Shown: positions 8,480-49,470 of the stretch, one piece after another
Numbering within the stretch: position 1 is the stretch's first letter
How the letters are laid out: each line of letters starts with the position of its first letter
Assembly (NCBI RefSeq): GCF_009720365.1
Contig: NZ_ML769318.1
Coordinates: 62,001 to 126,000, forward strand
Origin: Catellatospora paridis
Lineage (GTDB): Bacteria > Actinomycetota > Actinomycetes > Mycobacteriales > Micromonosporaceae
Length of the DNA stretch: 64,000 bases
Reading direction: 5' to 3'
The notes under the pieces: generated by a model
Database searches by the model: none
The model's input: the letters and a program-made list of their open reading frames with translations, nothing else
Told to the model about the DNA's origin: nothing
Position numbers and translations under genes: made by a program

Positions 8480-9114
8480 CCACCCAGGGTGAAGGACTGT
8501 TCGGGGTCACCGGCACCGGTGACACCTCCGGCATGGGCGGCCTGGTCCGCAAGCGGCCGGTGCAGCTGGACGCGCAGCGGCCGCTCGGCGGCTGGTACGA
8601 CGAGGTCGTGGACGCGCTGGAGGAGGCCTACCCGGGCTTCTCCGACGCGATCGAGCGCGTCGTCATCGACCGCGGCGAGCTGACCCTGCACATCGTCCCG
8701 GCGAAGATCGCCGAGGTGTGCCAGATCCTGCGCGACGACCTGTCGCTGCGCTACGAGCTGTGCTCGTCGGTGTCCGGCGTGGACTACATCGCCGAGGAGC
8801 GCCGCCTGCACGCGGTGTACCACCTCACCTCGATGACCTACCGCCGCCGCATCCGCCTGGAGTGCGCGGTCACCGCGGCCGACCCGCACCTGCCCAGCGT
8901 CACCTCGGTCTACCCGACCGCGGACTGGCAGGAGCGGGAGGCATACGACATGTTCGGCATCGTCTTCGACGGCCACCCGAACCTGACCCGCATCCTCATG
9001 CCGGACGACTGGGACGGTTTCCCGCAGCGCAAGGACTACCCGCTGGGTGGCGTGCCGGTCGAGTACAAGGGCGCCGAGATCCCGCCGCCCGACTCACGGA
9101 GGGCGTACCGGTGA
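8476..9114 (+). CDS. nuoC: NuoC, 30-kDa subunit
   Basis: Hydrophilic peripheral-arm subunit C (212 aa), separate from NuoD here rather than fused as in E. coli. Signatures are [22 protein letters not shown] (partial), [20 protein letters not shown] and [20 protein letters not shown]. The start is a GTGA overlap with nuoB. A poorly conserved N-terminal stretch (about 35 residues) precedes the domain. After the stop comes a 55-base spacer with degenerate GAGCG/AAGCG repeats before nuoD. Confidence 0.95.
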
Positions 9115-41333: not shown

Positions 41334-41481
41334 TGTGGACGCCCGAAATCTCGTGCGGCGCAAGGTGATGACAGCGACGTTCAGTTATGCAAGGCTGCTT
41401 TCACAATTGACGACCCGGGCCGCCGGCCCACCCTGCCGTGCGCTGCCCGGGGTCGTTTCCGTCAAAGGGAGGGAGGACCCT

Positions 41482-43770
41482 TTGCGAATCCGCAGAATTG
41501 GCAGCGCAGTCGGGATCACCGCTGCACTGGTTGCCGCCAGTCTCTCGGGTGCACCCGCGAGCGGTGCGCCCCAGCAGGCGGTCAACCCGCAGGAGCCGAC
41601 GGCGGGGGTCAGCCGGCCCGACAACCTGCCCAACCCCCTCGACGAGTCTCGGTCCGGGCTGCGCAAGCAGGCCATCGCCGACGTCGTCTCGGGTAAGGCC
41701 AAGGCCGTCGAGCGCAATGGATCGACGGTCGTGCAGGTCGGCAAGAACCGGTGGTCGGAGCTGAAGCGGAAGGCCGACAAGGTCGACCCGATCTTCGTCG
41801 TGCTGTCCGAGTTCGGCAACCAGGTGGACCCGCTGACCGGTGGCGGCGCGGGCCCGGTGCACAACGGGATCGCGGCGCCGGACCGCAGCGTGGACAACTC
41901 CACGTACTGGGAGGCGGACTTCAACCAGGCCCACTTCGACCGGATGTACAACGGGAAGAGTGAGTCGGTCGCCGACTTCTACTACGACCAGTCCGGTGGC
42001 AAGTACTCGACCAAGGCCGAGGTCACCGACTGGGTGAAGCTGTCGTACAACGAGGCGCGCTACGGGCACAACTTCCCGGAGAACGCCGAGGACCCCAACG
42101 GCGACCCGCTGGACGACCGGTACACGTACTGGCAGTACATCCGGGACACCGCCAACGCGTGGTACACCTCGCAGGTGGCGGCGGGCAAGTCGGCCGCCGA
42201 GATCGCGACGTACCTCAAGAAGTTCGACGTCTACGACCGCTACGACGCGGACGGCGACGGCAACTTCAACGAGCCGGACGGCTACATCGACCACTTCCAG
42301 GCGGTGCACGCCGGTGAGGGCGAAGAGGCCGGCGGCGGCGCGCAGGGCGAGGACGCCATCTGGTCGCACCGCTGGTACGCGTACCTGACCGACAAGGAGA
42401 AGACCGGCCCCGCCGGAGCCCTCCTCGGCGGCACGCAGATCGGCGACTCGGGCATCTGGATCGGTGACTACACGATCCAGCCCGAGAACGGCGGCCTGGG
42501 CGTGTTCGTGCACGAGTTCGGCCACGACCTCGGTCTGCCGGACCTGTACGACACCGCCGGCGGCGACAACGGCACGGGCTTCTGGACGGTCATGTCCGGC
42601 GGCTCGTGGCTGAACCACGACCCGAACAGCATCGGCACCTCGCCGGGCTACATGGGCCCGTGGGAGAAGCTGTTCCTCGGCTGGCTCGACTACGTGACGG
42701 TCAAGGACGGCAAGACCAAGATGGTCTCGCTGGGCTCGGCGGCCACGCCGCAGGGCCTGCCGCAGGCTGCCCTCGTGGAACTGCCCGAGCAGGTCATCAC
42801 CACGAACTACAACACGCCGTTCTCCGGCTCGTTCGAGTGGTGGAGCGGCTCCGGCGACGACCTCAACAACACGCTGACCCGGACCGTCGACCTGACCGGC
42901 GCCACGTCGGCCTCGCTGTCGGCCCAGTCGTGGTACGAGATCGAGGCGGGCTACGACTACCTGTACCTCGAGGTCAACGACGGCAGCGGCTGGACCTCGG
43001 TCGGCGACGTCCTCCAGGACGAGAGCGGCGGCTGGGTGCCGGTGTCTTGGGACCTGAGCGCGTACACGGGCAAGTCCGTGAGCGTGCGGTTCCGTTACGC
43101 CACCGACGGTGGTTTCGCGCCGAAGGGTGCCTTCTTCGACGACATCAAGATCGTCAAGGACGGCACCACCGTCCTCAGCGATGACGTCGAGGGCGGGACG
43201 AACGGCTGGACCGCGGTCGGCTTCACCCGCATGGGTGGTTCGACCACGGGCACCTACCCGCACTTCTACCTGGCGGAGTACCGGTCTTACACCGGCTACG
43301 ACAAGAACCTCAAGACCGGTCCGTACCAGTTCGGCTTCAACAACGTGACGCCGGACAAGGTGGAGCGGTTCCCGTACCAGGATGGTCTGCTGGTGTGGTA
43401 CGTCAACTACGCGTACCCGGACAACAACACCATTGCCCACCCCGGTCACGGCGAGGTCCTGCCGGTCGACGCCCGTCCGCAGGTTGCCCTGTGGCCGGAC
43501 GGCGGCAAGCTCACCAACCGCCGCCAGCCGTGGGACGCCACGTTCGGTCTGCAGAAGACCGACGCCGTGACGTTCCACCGCAACAGCGTTCCGCTGACGG
43601 TGGCGCCGCAGGCCGCGATCCCGACGTTCGACGACACGAACCCGGACGCGTACTGGAACGCCGCCAACCCGCTGAACTCGGTCAAGGTGGCCGGCAACGG
43701 CGTCAAGATCTCGGTCTGGCTGGAGATCCCCGGCACGCTGCCGGTGGCTCTGATCCAGGTCAAGAACTGA
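41482..43770 (+). CDS. Secreted M6 metalloprotease (immune inhibitor A-like)
   Basis: A 762-aa exported zinc protease. A signal peptide (about residues 1-29, ending ASGAPQQA) is followed by a propeptide, then the catalytic domain with His344 and His348 in HEFGHDLGLPD and Glu345 as general base; a YDADGDGNFNEPDGYIDHF stretch may bind calcium. The C-terminal half contains MAM/CBM-like beta domains (SAQSWYEIEAGYDYLYLEVN). The start is a TTG at 41482, four to five bases after GGGAGGACC; longer in-frame starts would put about 49 residues before the signal peptide. A strong terminator follows. Confidence 0.9.
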   Translation: MRIRRIGSAVGITAALVAASLSGAPASGAPQQAVNPQEPTAGVSRPDNLPNPLDESRSGLRKQAIADVVSGKAKAVERNGSTVVQVGKNRWSELKRKADKVDPIFVVLSEFGNQVDPLTGGGAGPVHNGIAAPDRSVDNSTYWEADFNQAHFDRMYNGKSESVADFYYDQSGGKYSTKAEVTDWVKLSYNEARYGHNFPENAEDPNGDPLDDRYTYWQYIRDTANAWYTSQVAAGKSAAEIATYLKKFDVYDRYDADGDGNFNEPDGYIDHFQAVHAGEGEEAGGGAQGEDAIWSHRWYAYLTDKEKTGPAGALLGGTQIGDSGIWIGDYTIQPENGGLGVFVHEFGHDLGLPDLYDTAGGDNGTGFWTVMSGGSWLNHDPNSIGTSPGYMGPWEKLFLGWLDYVTVKDGKTKMVSLGSAATPQGLPQAALVELPEQVITTNYNTPFSGSFEWWSGSGDDLNNTLTRTVDLTGATSASLSAQSWYEIEAGYDYLYLEVNDGSGWTSVGDVLQDESGGWVPVSWDLSAYTGKSVSVRFRYATDGGFAPKGAFFDDIKIVKDGTTVLSDDVEGGTNGWTAVGFTRMGGSTTGTYPHFYLAEYRSYTGYDKNLKTGPYQFGFNNVTPDKVERFPYQDGLLVWYVNYAYPDNNTIAHPGHGEVLPVDARPQVALWPDGGKLTNRRQPWDATFGLQKTDAVTFHRNSVPLTVAPQAAIPTFDDTNPDAYWNAANPLNSVKVAGNGVKISVWLEIPGTLPVALIQVKN

Positions 43771-43952: not shown

Positions 43953-44519
43953 TCATCCGCCGCAGGCCGGACACCCGGGCCCGCCAGCGCCGCGCACCAT
44001 CATGTCGGTGCTGGCCGGTGCGGCCACCAGTGGTGACTCGACCGCCAGCGGACCCTCGACCACCGGCAGCGCGAAGCCGTCGACCGTCACCCAGCCGATC
44101 GACACGCATCCGAGGCGAGTCGTCTCGTCGGCGATGAGGCACACCGCGTGGACATCGGGGGAGATCTGGATCTGTCTCGCGAACGGTGACGGCTGCGGTT
44201 GGTTCGGCGTGTGCGGGAAGGGCTCGCCGTGGGCGAAGTCACCGTGGTACGCGGCCAGGCCGTACACGTATCCCGTTGCCGACACCGGTCGGCACGTCAC
44301 GATCCCGCCCGACACGGTGACGCTGTGCCAGCCGTTGTGGTCCGTGTATGTGCTGACAGCGTCGATCTGCCCGATGGTGCTGGTGCCCTGCGCACACGGC
44401 AGCCACTTGTAGATCTGGTGGTACGACGGCGGTTCGTAGCCCGCTTGGGCGGGCACGGCGGCAGCGGTGACCGCCAGCGCCGTGAGAATCGCCGATGTGG
44501 CGCGTAGAAGTCTTCTCAA
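43953..44519 (-). CDS. Secreted six-cysteine protein, paralogue 1
   Basis: No known family. A 188-aa product with a signal peptide (LLRATSAILTALAVTAAAVPAQA) and six cysteines: YKWLPC, TCRP, HAVC, GCVSIGW and the C-terminal GPGCPACGG. All six positions, and YGLA.Y, are shared with the next gene, so the two are tandem paralogues that probably form three disulfides outside the cell. The start is TTG, ten bases after GGGGGAG. It ends 17 bases before a terminator. The nearby LuxR-type gene may control it. Confidence 0.75.
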   Translation of the reverse strand: MRRLLRATSAILTALAVTAAAVPAQAGYEPPSYHQIYKWLPCAQGTSTIGQIDAVSTYTDHNGWHSVTVSGGIVTCRPVSATGYVYGLAAYHGDFAHGEPFPHTPNQPQPSPFARQIQISPDVHAVCLIADETTRLGCVSIGWVTVDGFALPVVEGPLAVESPLVAAPASTDMMVRGAGGPGCPACGG

Positions 44520-44595: not shown

Positions 44596-45141
44596 TCAGC
44601 CTGCGCAGCTAGCGCATCCCGGGCCGAGGTGCGGCGGGATCCAGCCGGGGAAGTACACCTCGTTACTGACCACCGGGTCGTCAATCGGCAATGCGCCCTG
44701 GATATCGGGTCGCAGGCTGCCGTCGATCGTGGACCAGGTGATCGAGACGCACGCCACCCGGATCTTCGTGTCGGAGACCACGCAGACGGCCTGGTCGACG
44801 GGCCCGATCGGTAGGCCGGCGTTGAAGAAGTAATGCTGGGTGGGGTTGGTGCCGAAGGAGTAACGGAGGCCCGTCGCCGAGCCGCTGCCGTAGCGGGCGA
44901 GCCCATAAATATCGATCATGGGCGAGGGCTTGCGGCAGAGGTCAAGGACGCCGCCGAGCTCGGCGACGTATCTCGCGTTCGCGGTGTCGTAGCGGATGCC
45001 AGCGGTGCTGATGTGCCCCGTGGTGCTGCCCGGCGGGCAGGACAGCCACTGGTAATCCGTCACCGCCGCCGCCGGCGCGGCGGGGAGGATGGCGGCCGCC
45101 GCGATGAGGGTGGCGGTGAACGCCTGCCTGATTCTTCTCAC
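44596..45141 (-). CDS. Secreted six-cysteine protein, paralogue 2
   Basis: A 181-aa product with a signal peptide (IRQAFTATLIAAAAILPAAPAAA) and six cysteines in the same order as paralogue 1: YQWLSC, DLCRKP, AVC, ACVSITW and GPGCASCAG. The matching AVC..SDT...ACVSITWSTIDG block shows clear common origin. Function unknown. The GTG at 45141 follows GGGAG by eight bases; a longer reading frame upstream lacks a site and would bury the signal peptide. Confidence 0.75.
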   Translation of the reverse strand: MRRIRQAFTATLIAAAAILPAAPAAAVTDYQWLSCPPGSTTGHISTAGIRYDTANARYVAELGGVLDLCRKPSPMIDIYGLARYGSGSATGLRYSFGTNPTQHYFFNAGLPIGPVDQAVCVVSDTKIRVACVSITWSTIDGSLRPDIQGALPIDDPVVSNEVYFPGWIPPHLGPGCASCAG

Positions 45142-45258
45142 TGGTTCTGCTCCCTGTCGGATTTCGAATCTACGGTTGCCGAAATGGGCGCCTGCCGCGT
45201 TGCCGGGGCGCCGTATGCGGGACACGTAGCGGCGACAACCGTCGTCCGCGTGAATCTG

Positions 45259-46314
45259 TTACTGGTGTTGCTCCCCGTCGAGGCCGTCGGGTGCCTGCTC
45301 GCTGGTGGGCGAGTGCTGCGCCGCCTCGGCGCCCAGCCGCAGTCCCAGCTGGAACCGGTTGACGACGTCGTACCGTTCCATGAGCCCGGACAGGGTGTAG
45401 GCGATCGTGCGCACGCTGATGTCCAGCTTGTTCGCGATCGAGGCGTCGGTGTGGCCCTTGGCCAGCAGCATCACGATGGTGTTCTCGCGCGGAGTCAGGC
45501 CCGGTGGCGGTGTCCAGTCCCGCCCGGGGTCCTTGGCCAGCGCCCAGTGCTGCAGGAACAGCGCCCTGAGGTCGGCGACGAGCCGCGGATCGGTGATCTC
45601 CCAGGCGCCGCGTGAGCTCTCGGAGGGATCCGGGGGCACATAGGCCGTGGTGCGGTCGCAGATGGTGAGCTTGCCGGGCAGCTCAGGCAGCTCGCGGTAC
45701 TCCATGCCGAGGCTGACCATCTCGTCGTCGAACCAGTCCGACTCGTCCTCGGCCGAGGCGGGCACGCCCAGGCTCAGGGAGGTCACACCGCGCGCCATCA
45801 TCCTGCGGCTGAGCGGTGCCGCCTGCTTGATCGTGGCGTTGTCGAAGGCGGGGTCCGGATTCATCGAGAGGTGCTCGTGCCGCTCCGAATCCAGCAGTTC
45901 CGCGTACCTGAGCCGGGACACCGCCCGGTTCGGGAAGGTGCGGACACCTTCGTGGGGGAAGTGCGCGACGTCGGCCATGATGCTCGGCAGCGACAACCGG
46001 GTGAGGCTGCGGTGCAGCCGGTGCCGGGCGAGCAGGGTGCGGCGATGCCGGTCCCGCAGCACGGGCAGCACCTGCGCAGGGGTGCGACTGGCCCACAGGC
46101 GCTGGTCGCCTTCGGCGGCGCGATCGGGAAGGGCGGCGCCGAGCGCGGTCAGCTCGTCGAGCGCGCTGAGCACCTGCCGGGTCTTCATCTCCAGCGACCG
46201 GCTGATGCTGTCCACGGACCAGGGCCCGAAGGTGATGAGAGTGCGGTATACGAGGTCTGCCTGCGGCGAGACGCCCCACTTCATCAGTGAGGGCACGAAC
46301 TGTGTTTGCAGCAT
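45259..46314 (-). CDS. LuxR-type transcriptional regulator with TrmB-like N terminus
   Basis: A 351-aa regulator. Residues about 15-75 look like a TrmB/winged-helix module (LVYRTLITFGPWSVDSISRS, RQVLSALDELTALGA). The middle (about 120-260) is an uncharacterised sensor-like region. The C-terminal LuxR helix-turn-helix (about 280-335) is clear: LTPRENTIVMLLAKGHTD, ISVRTIAYTLSGLMERY. The ATG follows GGGGAGG. A TAGGTT -10 element and a 24-base palindrome lie 58-63 and 98-121 bases upstream, and the same arrangement is repeated at the decayed copy next door, so autoregulation is likely. Confidence 0.85.
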   Translation of the reverse strand: MLQTQFVPSLMKWGVSPQADLVYRTLITFGPWSVDSISRSLEMKTRQVLSALDELTALGAALPDRAAEGDQRLWASRTPAQVLPVLRDRHRRTLLARHRLHRSLTRLSLPSIMADVAHFPHEGVRTFPNRAVSRLRYAELLDSERHEHLSMNPDPAFDNATIKQAAPLSRRMMARGVTSLSLGVPASAEDESDWFDDEMVSLGMEYRELPELPGKLTICDRTTAYVPPDPSESSRGAWEITDPRLVADLRALFLQHWALAKDPGRDWTPPPGLTPRENTIVMLLAKGHTDASIANKLDISVRTIAYTLSGLMERYDVVNRFQLGLRLGAEAAQHSPTSEQAPDGLDGEQHQ

Positions 46315-46411
46315 GATGGCCTCCCCGTGTCAGCCATGCTCCGGCAGGGATCATCCCTGCCCGACAAGAGCAACCTAGACAGCGGGATCAAACCGCGACA
46401 GCACCGTCCGT

Positions 46412-46435
46412 CCGATTGCATGTTTCTGCAATCGG
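46412..46435. promoter_or_regulatory. Palindromic operator, copy 1
   Basis: Perfect 9-base arms CCGATTGCA and TGCAATCGG with a 6-base spacer. Its GATTGCA arm begins 37 bases from the TAGGTT -10 element (plus-strand AACCTA 46372-46377) of the LuxR-type gene. The flank to about 46452 is shared with copies 2 and 3. Confidence 0.7.
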
Positions 46436-46508
46436 CGATACCGATCATGGTCGACGCCGAACGGGGGACGATCGGTCACCTGACCGCGGTCCGCTTCGGC
46501 TGGAGGGG

Positions 46509-46751
46509 CTATTCGGGCTCGTCGTCGTCCGGTCCCTCGTCGTCCGGGTGCGTGGACGCCTCGGCGCCCAGTCGCAGGCCGAGCTGGAATCGCGTGGAGA
46601 CGCCGAACCGGTCCATGAGCGAGGAAAGTGTGTAGGCGATCGTGCGTACGCTGAGGTCGAGCTTCGCCGCGATGGCGGCGTCGGTGTAGCCCTTGGCCAG
46701 CAGCACCACGATCATGCGCTCTCGTGGTGTCAGGTTCATCGGTGTGTCCAA
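46509..46751 (-). CDS. LuxR helix-turn-helix fragment, remnant of a regulator paralogue
   Basis: An open frame of 80 codons (TTG at 46751, ATG at 46739 more likely) that encodes only a LuxR DNA-binding domain, LTPRERMIVVLLAKGYTD and LSVRTIAYTLSSLMDRF, nearly identical to the C terminus of the full-length regulator 0.2 kb away, plus an acidic tail. Upstream sequence in another frame (GRDWT) continues the homology, so a one-base deletion separates the parts. It may still be translated as a stand-alone DNA-binding peptide that competes with the intact regulator, or be dead. Confidence 0.6.
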   Translation of the reverse strand: MDTPMNLTPRERMIVVLLAKGYTDAAIAAKLDLSVRTIAYTLSSLMDRFGVSTRFQLGLRLGAEASTHPDDEGPDDDEPE

Positions 46752-46886
46752 TCACGGCCCTGGTCGTCGGCGATGTCCCAGCGCCGCGGGAAGAGGGCCG
46801 TGAACCCGCCCGCTACGTTCCGGCAGGCCTCGGCGGGCATGCCGAGGCCAGGGTTCGTGACCGGTGCGCTGGCCTCCCCGTGGCAG
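46752..46886 (-). pseudogene. Frame-shifted remains of the 5' part of the second LuxR-type regulator
   Basis: On the minus strand the promoter and GGGGAGGCCA site of the intact regulator are recognisable (plus-strand 46870-46880), but the ATG is replaced by GCA and most of the gene is deleted. A short frame reading FTALFPRRWDIADDQGRDWT resembles LRALFLQHWALAKDPGRDWT of the intact protein and then meets a stop after the deletion. Confidence 0.65.
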
Positions 46887-46965
46887 CTGTTCCGGCAGGG
46901 GCGACGCCCGGCCGGACATGAGAAACCTAGTCATGGCGCACGGCACGGAACAGTGCTTCGGGGGC

Positions 46966-46985
46966 GATTGCACCTTTCTGCAACC
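46966..46985. promoter_or_regulatory. Palindromic operator, copy 2
   Basis: GATTGCA-N6-TGCAACC. Exactly as at copy 1, its edge is 37 bases from a minus-strand TAGGTT (plus-strand AACCTA 46924-46929). On the plus strand it is followed by a conserved GATCTTTGGCGAC stretch that contains a possible -35 element. Confidence 0.65.
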
Positions 46986-47033
46986 GAAGATGACGATCTT
47001 TGGCGACTACCGGGCGGGTCCTAGGCTCGATGG

Positions 47034-47228
47034 CACGAGCCCGTTCCCGCAAGGGGGCTCACCAACACCAGGCGCAGCAGGTCAGCGGTGTCCGCACCGT
47101 CCGGCGGTCGCGTCCGAGGGTCGCCGCGCACGTGCGTGCGAGCAGGAGCGGTCGCGCTCCGGCAAGCACGGGGGACCACGTCCCGGCGACAGAGACAGAG
47201 GGCGACCGCCGAACGGCGGTCGCCCTCT
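47034..47228 (+). ncRNA. Candidate short transcript downstream of operator copy 2
   Basis: A plus-strand promoter is plausible: TTGGCG (47000-47005), 16 bases, TAGGCT (47022-47027). The transcript would begin near 47034, contain a GAGCCC/GGGGCTC hairpin early on, and end at the strong hairpin at 47197-47228. No convincing coding frame with a start site is seen. Boundaries are estimated. Confidence 0.3.
47197..47228. terminator. Strong hairpin with no adjacent gene
   Basis: AGAGGGCGACCGCC (47197-47210) pairs perfectly with 47215-47228 around a GAAC loop. No annotated gene ends here, which is the main reason to suspect a non-coding transcript. Confidence 0.75.
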
Positions 47229-47305
47229 CTTGCTGCTGCGGGATCGGCGGCCGGCCGCGGTGGCGTACTCCTGCGCCGCGCGCGGGGGGCGTCGCGGCCG
47301 CCGGC

Positions 47306-47325
47306 GATTGCATACTTCTGCAACC
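47306..47325. promoter_or_regulatory. Palindromic operator, copy 3
   Basis: GATTGCA-N6-TGCAACC, followed on the plus strand by GATCTTGGCTGC as in copy 2. TTGGCT (47339-47344), 18 bases and TATCTT (47363-47368) form a reasonable promoter. No regulator gene lies beside this copy. Confidence 0.65.
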
Positions 47326-47374
47326 GGCAGTTTTGATCTTGGCTGCGCGGGTGGCTGCCTTCTATCTTCTTCTC

Positions 47375-47505
47375 AGCGCCATCGCGAGACACGGCGCACG
47401 TGCGTGACAGTTCGGCCGGTGACGGCCCGACCGTGACGGGGGACCGCGTGCACGTGGCACGGGAAAGGGGCGGCAGCCGGTGTCCACCGGCTGCCGCCCC
47501 TGCGT
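47375..47505 (+). ncRNA. Candidate short transcript downstream of operator copy 3
   Basis: From the promoter at 47339-47368 a plus-strand RNA of about 130 bases would run into the hairpin at 47467-47500. It holds no reading frame longer than about ten codons with a start. Boundaries are estimated; the hairpin also serves acsA from the other side. Confidence 0.28.
47467..47500. terminator. Terminator at the acsA 3' end
   Basis: GGGGCGGCAGCCGGT (47467-47481) pairs perfectly with 47486-47500 around a GTCC loop, 17 bases past the acsA stop. Confidence 0.85.
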
Positions 47506-47517
47506 CGTCGTACCGGG

Positions 47518-49470
47518 TCAGTCCTCGTCGGACTTGCTCGACTGCATACCCGCGGAGATCAGGTTCATCACCGCGGAATCCTGCAGCGTGGTGACGTCGC
47601 CGAGCGAGCGGTTCTCCGCCACGTCACGCAGCAGCCGTCGCATGATCTTGCCGGACCGGGTCTTCGGCAGCTCGGTCACCAGCATGATCTGGCGCGGTTT
47701 GCAGATCGGGCCCAGCGTCTTGGCGACGTGCTCGCGCAGCTCCGGAACGCCGACCTCGGCCCCGCCCTTGAGGATCACGAAGGCGACGATGGCCTGACCG
47801 GTCGTCGGGTCGGTGGCGCCGACGACCGCCGCCTCCGCCACCGCCGGGTGGGCGACCAGCGCCGACTCGACCTCGGTGGTGGAGATGTTGTGGCCGGACA
47901 CCAGCATCACGTCGTCGACCCGGCCGAGCAGCCAGATCGCCCCGTCCTCGTCGCGCTTGGCGCCGTCGCCGGCGAAGTAGAAGCCCTGCTCGGCGAAGCG
48001 CGACCAGTACGTCTCCAGGAAGCGCTTGTCGTCGCCCCAGATGGTGCGCAGCATGGACGGCCACGGGGCGGTCAGCGCCAGGTAACCGCCGCCGCCGTTG
48101 CCCACGATCGAGCCGTCGTCCGCGACGACCTCGGCCTTGATGCCCGGCAGCGGGCCCATCGCCGAGCCCGGCTTGCAGTCGGTCACCCCCGGCAGCGGCG
48201 AGATCATGATCGCGCCGGTCTCGGTCTGCCACCAGGTGTCCACGACGGGGCACCGGTTGCCGCCGATGTGCTCGCGGTACCACATCCAGGCCTCGGGGTT
48301 GATCGGCTCGCCGACCGAGCCGAGCAGCCGCAGCGAGCTGAGGTCGAACTGGGCCGGGATGTCGTCGCCCCACTTGGCGAACGTGCGGATCGCGGTGGGT
48401 GCGGTGTAGAGGATCGTGACGCGGTACTTCTCCACGATCTCCCAGAACCGGCCGCGGTGCGGGGTGTCCGGGGTGCCCTCGTACATGACCTGGGTCGCGC
48501 CGTTGGACAGCGGGCCGTACACGATGTAGCTGTGCCCGGTGACCCAGCCGATGTCGGCGGTGCACCAGTAGACGTCGGTCTCCGGCTTCAGGTCGAACAC
48601 CGCGTGGTGGGTGTACGAGGTCTGGGTCAGGTAACCGCCGGTGGTGTGCAGGATGCCCTTGGGCTTCGCGGTGGTGCCGGAGGTGTAGAGGATGAACAGC
48701 GGGTGCTCGGCGTCGAACGGCTGCGCCTCGTGCTCGGGGCTGGCGTTGCCGACCACGTCGTGCCACCACACGTCACGGCTGTCGTCCCAGGCGACGTCCT
48801 GGCCGGTGCGGCGCACCACCAGGACCTTCTCGACGGTCGGGCACTCGGCCACGGACTCGTCGACGGTCGGCTTGAGCGCGCTCGGCGCGCCCCGGCGGTA
48901 ACCGCCGTCGGCGGTGATCACGACCTTCGCGCTGGCGTCCTGGATGCGGCCGCCCAGCGCGTCCTTGCTGAAGCCGCCGAACACCACCGAGTGGGTCGCG
49001 CCGATGCGGGCGCAGGCCAGCATCGCGACCGCCGCCTCGGGGATCATCGGCAGGTAGATCGCGACCCGGTCACCGGCGACGACCCCGAGGTCGGTCAGCG
49101 CGTTGGCCGCCCGGCACACCTCGGCGTGCAGGTCGGCGTACGTGATGGTGCGGGTGTCGCCCGGCTCGCCCTCCCAGTGGATGGCGACCCGGTCGCCCAG
49201 CCCGTTGGCCAGGTGCCGGTCCAGGCAGTTGTACGCGATGTTGAGCTGCCCGCCGACGAACCACTTCGCGAACGGCGGGTTGGACCAGTCCAGTACCTCG
49301 TCCCAAGGCCGGGCCCAGTCCAGCCGCTTGGCCTGGGTCTCCCAGAACGCCAGCCGGTCGGCGTCGGCCTGCGCGTAAGCCTCGGCGGTGACGTTCGCCT
49401 GTGCGGCGATCTCCGCCGGGGGTGGGAACCGGCGCGACTCGTGCAGCAGGTTTTCGAGGGTCTCGCTCAC
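47518..49470 (-). CDS. acsA: Acetyl-CoA synthetase
   Basis: AMP-forming acetate:CoA ligase (650 aa, normal length). Motifs: P-loop-like [30 protein letters not shown], and the C-terminal lysine loop [16 protein letters not shown] with the catalytic Lys that is regulated by acetylation in this family. It activates acetate for central metabolism. GTG start, with AGGGAGG eight bases upstream. Divergent from a Fic-like gene, a neighbourhood I recall as common in actinobacteria. Confidence 0.96.

Follow-up and report, generated by a model that had tools for sequence, protein, structure and literature searches.

Which protein reads three palindromes set within 0.9 kb, and what is transcribed from them, is the question raised by this locus of Catellatospora paridis, which lies in the 64,000-nucleotide stretch of DNA analysed here (the window). 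A preliminary description had seen in it a duplicated module of regulator, operator and divergent transcript. Comparison between genomes upholds this module through the linkage of operator to regulator and the promoter geometry, and amends it in two respects: the transcript is a candidate RNA with a terminator of its own, and "decayed" is too simple a description of the second regulator copy. The reading we favour from the sequence, with a probability of about 0.65, is a self-regulating activator module with a divergent small RNA (sRNA), in a layout like that of SgrR-SgrS. The features concerned are:

43953–44519, minus strand: secB, second member of the secA family, with a predicted all-beta fold
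44596–45141, minus strand: secA, which follows the regulator, of about 181 aa and apparently with a signal peptide (a longer version of the ORF, from 45225, is also listed)
45259–46314, minus strand: regulator of 351 aa, with a TrmB-like N-terminal part and a LuxR/GerE C-terminal domain
46372–46377, minus strand: -10-like TAGGTT of the regulator, 36 nt from operator copy 1
46414–46433, no strand assigned: operator copy 1 (GATTGCATGTTTCTGCAATC), at the regulator promoter
46509–46739, minus strand: GerE-only ORF of 76 codons, a LuxR DNA-binding domain, formerly described as the decayed copy
46924–46929, minus strand: -10-like TAGGTT of the GerE-only ORF, 36 nt from operator copy 2
46966–46985, no strand assigned: operator copy 2, with the GerE-only ORF on its minus side and RNA-a on its plus side
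47000–47027, plus strand: promoter-like TTGGCG-N16-TAGGCT of RNA-a, from a scripted search
47034–47232, plus strand: RNA-a, candidate RNA of about 200 nt, its ends inferred from the -10-like element and the terminator
47130–47181, plus strand: conserved core of RNA-a, a predicted stem with the bulge GGGGAC
47197–47228, plus strand: terminator-like hairpin of RNA-a (z -6.75 for 47195–47240)
47306–47325, no strand assigned: operator copy 3, before RNA-b (plus)
47339–47368, plus strand: promoter-like TTGGCT-N18-TATCTT of RNA-b, its spacer read from the sequence (the script picked an earlier TTGATC)
47375–47505, plus strand: RNA-b, candidate RNA of about 130 nt, its ends inferred
47398–47449, plus strand: conserved core of RNA-b
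47466–47501, plus strand: terminator-like hairpin of RNA-b (z -5.85 for 47460–47506)

Operators, regulator and promoter geometry

The pattern GATTGCA-N6-TGCAAYC, previously described as occurring three times in 0.9 kb, was recovered at the three operator positions listed above (four strand-hits at three sites; 100 shuffles averaged 0.00); the interval 46412–46435 first given for copy 1 is the palindrome with two extra paired bases on each side. A genome-wide search, proposed earlier as a check, found the pattern with zero or one mismatch only at these three sites of the 8.97-Mb genome (6 strand-hits) and gave 17 strand-hits when up to two mismatches were allowed; within this genome the window occupies G000:C9:62001-126000. 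Homology does run on beyond the palindrome, over 43 nt with 77% and 70% identity to copy 1, and the GATC-TGG-C block reported there contains a -35-like TTGG element 13–14 nt past operator copies 2 and 3 (a distance scripted at copy 2 and read from the sequence at copy 3). The minus-strand TAGGTT of copies 1 and 2 starts 36 nt past the palindrome edge, which equals the claimed 37 in inclusive counting. No -10-like hexamer was found on the minus side of copy 3 or on the plus side of copy 1; in the latter stretch (46434–46500), GATCATGG and ACGGGGGAC are kept and the RNA core is absent, and it is possibly the relic of a lost RNA copy.

The regulator carries a GerE domain (PF00196; E 4.5e-8, 33 bits against a cut-off of 23.5), which assigns it to the LuxR/NarL type, and gave no Pfam hit up to E 1 to a receiver domain or to the autoinducer-binding domain of quorum-sensing LuxR proteins. 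Its positions 22–264 match weakly the profile of TrmBL2, an archaeal protein (E 0.0029; chains 5box, 5bpd and 5bqt at E 0.0029–0.0043 over about the same positions), and PF01978 scored 14.4 bits, under its cut-off of 25.6. The nearest named homologues belong to Catellatospora, a genus of the family Micromonosporaceae; across the ten other genomes of the genus, the regulator's best match is 51–67% identical in nine and 35% identical in the tenth (G009). At one locus (L061) the full module of operator, regulator and secreted protein occurs twice in tandem, a GerE-only ORF separating the two, and in Catelliglobosispora koreensis (L131, 4893–5264) an extra regulator-like stretch, a GerE part, stands directly before the regulator, in the same place as in L069.

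Promoter geometry was compared over 19 operators of 8 genomes, two of which (L061 7525 and L058 7970) have one mismatch. A -10-like hexamer was present on 30 of the 38 operator sides, always 36 or 37 nt from the palindrome, and was not found within 80 nt on the remaining eight; random positions had such a hexamer there in 16 of 20000 cases, a control whose exact odds are not meaningful, since the -10 pattern was set after the sites had been inspected, while the constancy of the spacing is. The 30 sides comprise 13 of RNA copies (all 13 thus have operator and hexamer at 36–37 nt), 9 of regulators, 6 of GerE-only ORFs and 2 others. Loci L066, L067 and L072 lay outside this count; the L067 operator at 9022 has, by eye, TATGTT at 36 nt on one side. 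The constant spacing puts the centre of the operator about 58 bases ahead of the start site inferred for either flanking promoter (near -58), where it overlaps neither the -35 nor the -10 element. An activator site near -58, clear of both elements, is the usual place of class I activators, and from this centring we infer that the site would suit class I activation.

The regulator might instead bind the palindrome and repress both its own gene and the divergent transcript until a ligand of the TrmB-like part releases it. The geometry, together with the linkage of operator to regulator set out below, fits any autoregulator, and TrmB-type proteins are often repressors; a site centred near -58 on both sides, however, leaves the -35 and -10 elements free, and we regard repression as unlikely.

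The candidate divergent RNA and the GerE-only ORF

On the side of the operator opposite the regulator or GerE-only ORF lies a putative divergent transcript unit of about 130–200 nt, whose 13 copies have in common ACGUGCGUG (replaced by ACGCGCGUG in one of them), then a variable hairpin, ACGGGGGACCRCG and a GC-rich terminator-like hairpin. A covariance model found exactly these 13 copies, in 8 of the 11 genus genomes and all at an operator-regulator locus; the copies had trained the model, so that the result shows absence elsewhere in the genomes and is not independent support. The model did not find the RNA in G005, G009 and G010, and in G005 and G010 both regulator and operator are present. 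Six copies face a full regulator (L058, L059, L060, L061 twice and L063), five a GerE-only ORF (window, L060, L062, L063 and L064) and two no gene (window and L062). Wider searches of 300 + 354 family and 394 class genomes returned weak hits only, and Rfam 15 gave five matches up to E 5 over 45000–47600 of the window, none above the gathering score. The terminator of RNA-b adjoins the 3' end of a convergent gene that by eye is acetyl-CoA-synthetase-like.

The core of the RNA is nearly invariant across the 13 copies from 8 genomes (23 invariant columns of 59 in the alignment), and the flanks are hardly alignable between groups. The lengths of the cores represent all three frames, and between sister copies there are gaps of 1, 2 and 5 nt, so that the RNA is probably non-coding; we take the divergent transcript to be, probably, a non-coding RNA that ends at its own terminator.

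In the alignment the core forms two five-pair helices around the six-base bulge GGGGAC, with which RNAalifold agrees, predicting the terminator as well. The core stem was predicted in 11 of 13 isolated cores, in 5 of 13 sequences of core plus terminator and in 3 of 13 whole transcripts (both helices), so that for the full RNA this fold is putative; folded singly, the two window cores scored modestly (z -1.88 and -1.03). For core plus terminator, 0 of 500 shuffles reached the observed paired cells, double changes or covariation score, whereas 57 of the 500 reached the number of further pair types; the terminator supplies most of the signal. For the core alone, three cells changed on both sides and two of five measures were reached by 59 of 500 shuffles; the core stem hardly varies and therefore offers little covariation.

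The bulge string ACGGGGGA recurs, identical, as the ribosome-binding site of secB and of three regulator genes in two genomes (one gene in L060 and two in L061), the window regulator having ACGGGGAG at its own. The RNA showed no antisense preference for the ribosome-binding site of the regulator, of the short ORF or of the secreted genes. The match suggests, weakly, a decoy and equally a relic, that is, the leader and ribosome-binding site of a lost gene, capped by a terminator and having no RNA function. Such a relic would agree with this match, with the fold of whole transcripts, which mostly departs from the core model, and with the sole hit in another genus at E <0.003 (two identical copies, G217), which falls at what looks like the ribosome-binding site of a gene for a secreted, protease-like protein. 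A relic should nevertheless drift, and the core stays near-invariant between flanks that hardly align; moreover, 4 of the 13 copies lack a start codon 4–14 nt after the core. We hold a relic to be decidedly unlikely and prefer a transcript that functions as an RNA.

The regulator copy earlier called decayed has indeed lost its N-terminal part, but it keeps an open 76-codon GerE ORF under apparent constraint. GerE-only ORFs of 76–78 codons adjoin the operator in six species (a one-mismatch operator in L061), with pairwise dN/dS of 0.17–0.50 over 15 pairs; of four pairs put to a Fisher test, three gave p 5e-5 to 8e-5 and the closest gave 0.31. The nucleotide tree separates these ORFs into two groups or more; its support is moderate, and the protein tree disagrees with it in part. 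The paralogue seems to have arisen more than once. The window ORF has no strong ribosome-binding site, which makes its expression uncertain. GerE-only proteins may compete with the full regulator. A bolder scheme takes the RNA as a new structured sRNA family, wired to the TrmB-LuxR regulator by one symmetric operator and multiplied in the genus within a duplicating unit, in which the RNA, with the eight bases ACGGGGGA in its core, would be a decoy for a controller of translation at like ribosome-binding sites and the GerE-only paralogue would compete for the operator; we consider this scheme as a whole highly doubtful.

Linkage of operator, regulator and secreted proteins

The pattern RTTGCA-N6-TGCAAY occurred at 20 sites in the 11 genus genomes, 18 of them at regulator loci, and the reversed-pattern control at 4 sites in the same genomes. 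Scanning of 260 nt upstream of named homologues (L107–L131; 7 from Catellatospora and 18 others, with control windows from the same loci) found TTGCA-N6-TGCAA with at most one mismatch in 20 of 25 against 8 of 936 control windows, and the exact motif in 13 of 25 against 7 of 936; outside Catellatospora, the corresponding counts were 13 of 18 and 6 of 18. Locus L132, whose match spans just residues 273–339, was excluded, and in L111 the match start seems to take in a GerE-only ORF, to which the upstream operator would therefore belong. Among 20 fetched regulator regions, the exact operator was missing in 10 that have a regulator homologue (L065, L068–L071 and L073–L077), mostly with more distant homologues; the operator persists upstream of homologues of about 40% identity in other genera. 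As judged from these comparisons the operator travels with the regulator, and the neighbouring regulator is the likely binder of the palindrome. That another DNA-binding protein recognises it is very improbable given these 18 of 20 sites and the persistence in other genera, although a similar unlinked palindrome (G000:C5:386170) precedes another apparent secreted-protein gene in a different layout.

Several sites have secreted proteins as neighbours. An unlinked site in G004:C22 (L155, G004:C22:138800-141200), which by eye has TAGCGT 37 nt away, precedes the gene of a trypsin-like secreted protease, and this gene is likely a remote member of the regulon. In Virgisporangium ochraceum (L116, near 4917), the operator lies between the regulator and a gene for an apparently secreted alpha-L-arabinofuranosidase. 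Two loci have a second operator after the secreted-protein gene: at L059 7580 it faces an apparently secreted 244-aa protein that has no Pfam hit, and at L058 7970 (one mismatch) a short stretch with a hairpin at its end.

Members of the secA and secB family are about 180 aa long, apparently carry a signal peptide, and show conserved cysteines and a GPxCxxC-like end. Of 19 hits to this family in the genus, 17 lie at regulator loci, one of the 17 (G005:C45) beside a 37%-identical homologue. Across 32 further loci (L065–L077 and L114–L132, L066 and L067 being in the profile), a member was found in 16 (threshold E <=0.001), directly after the regulator in 15 (E from 2.5e-62 to 1e-5); the named loci include Hamadaea, Virgisporangium, Phytohabitans, Micromonospora and Plantactinospora. 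For secB an all-beta structure was predicted (mean pLDDT 84.1, 16 sequences), and no specific relative was found. A gene for an M6 (immune inhibitor A-like) metalloprotease (41335–43770, plus strand) converges on the secreted-protein genes, and 8 of the 20 fetched regulator regions have full or partial homologues of it.

In the self-regulating activator module that we favour, the palindrome would be bound by a dimer of the adjacent TrmB-LuxR fusion regulator, which would recognise TTGCA-N6-TGCAA and most likely activate both flanking promoters, with its own gene and the secreted cysteine proteins as leftward output and a short non-coding RNA as rightward output. Duplication would have given the three sites, serving the full regulator, the GerE-only paralogue (a possible competitor) with RNA-a, and RNA-b. 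The RNA would contain the near-invariant core, in which a stem probably carries a G-rich bulge of six bases, would end at the terminator hairpin and would probably act in trans. The locus may offer a compact actinomycete example in which a single symmetric site lets a regulator drive its own gene as well as secreted proteins and a divergent sRNA, and a paralogue reduced to the DNA-binding domain, seemingly arisen more than once, may tell how duplication tunes such circuits. It also ties to the regulator, in several genera, a secreted family whose window members have no Pfam or NCBIfam hit.

Comparison with known systems

The preliminary description knew of no system of this form, but the layout has precedents: SgrR-SgrS, OxyR-OxyS and GcvA-GcvB are divergent regulator-sRNA pairs of enterobacteria (PMC4423775). 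The likeness is that the sRNA gene, here a candidate, adjoins the presumed regulator gene and diverges from it across a shared, here putative, intergenic control region. The present locus differs in its LuxR/TrmB fusion, its actinomycete host and an RNA that is unrelated as far as Rfam shows; in one symmetric site equidistant from both promoters; and in a duplicated module with a DNA-binding-domain-only paralogue and a secreted-protein output. The regulators of the three enterobacterial pairs are SgrR or of LysR type.

With LuxR/NarL-type regulators (GerE, PF00196) the protein shares the C-terminal GerE domain and, in its putative site, an inverted repeat whose half-sites are spaced by about one helical turn, and it departs from them in its TrmB-like N-terminal part and in having neither receiver nor autoinducer domain among Pfam hits up to E 1. 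Its resemblance to the TrmB family (TrmBL2 and relatives) is the weak profile match described above, and the fused second DNA-binding domain sets it apart. 6C RNA and other actinobacterial sRNAs are short GC-rich hairpin RNAs, as is the candidate RNA, which unlike them has no above-cut-off Rfam match in 45000–47600. With another type of regulator, another RNA, a single symmetric site and a duplicated module, the locus would represent a variant of the known divergent layout.
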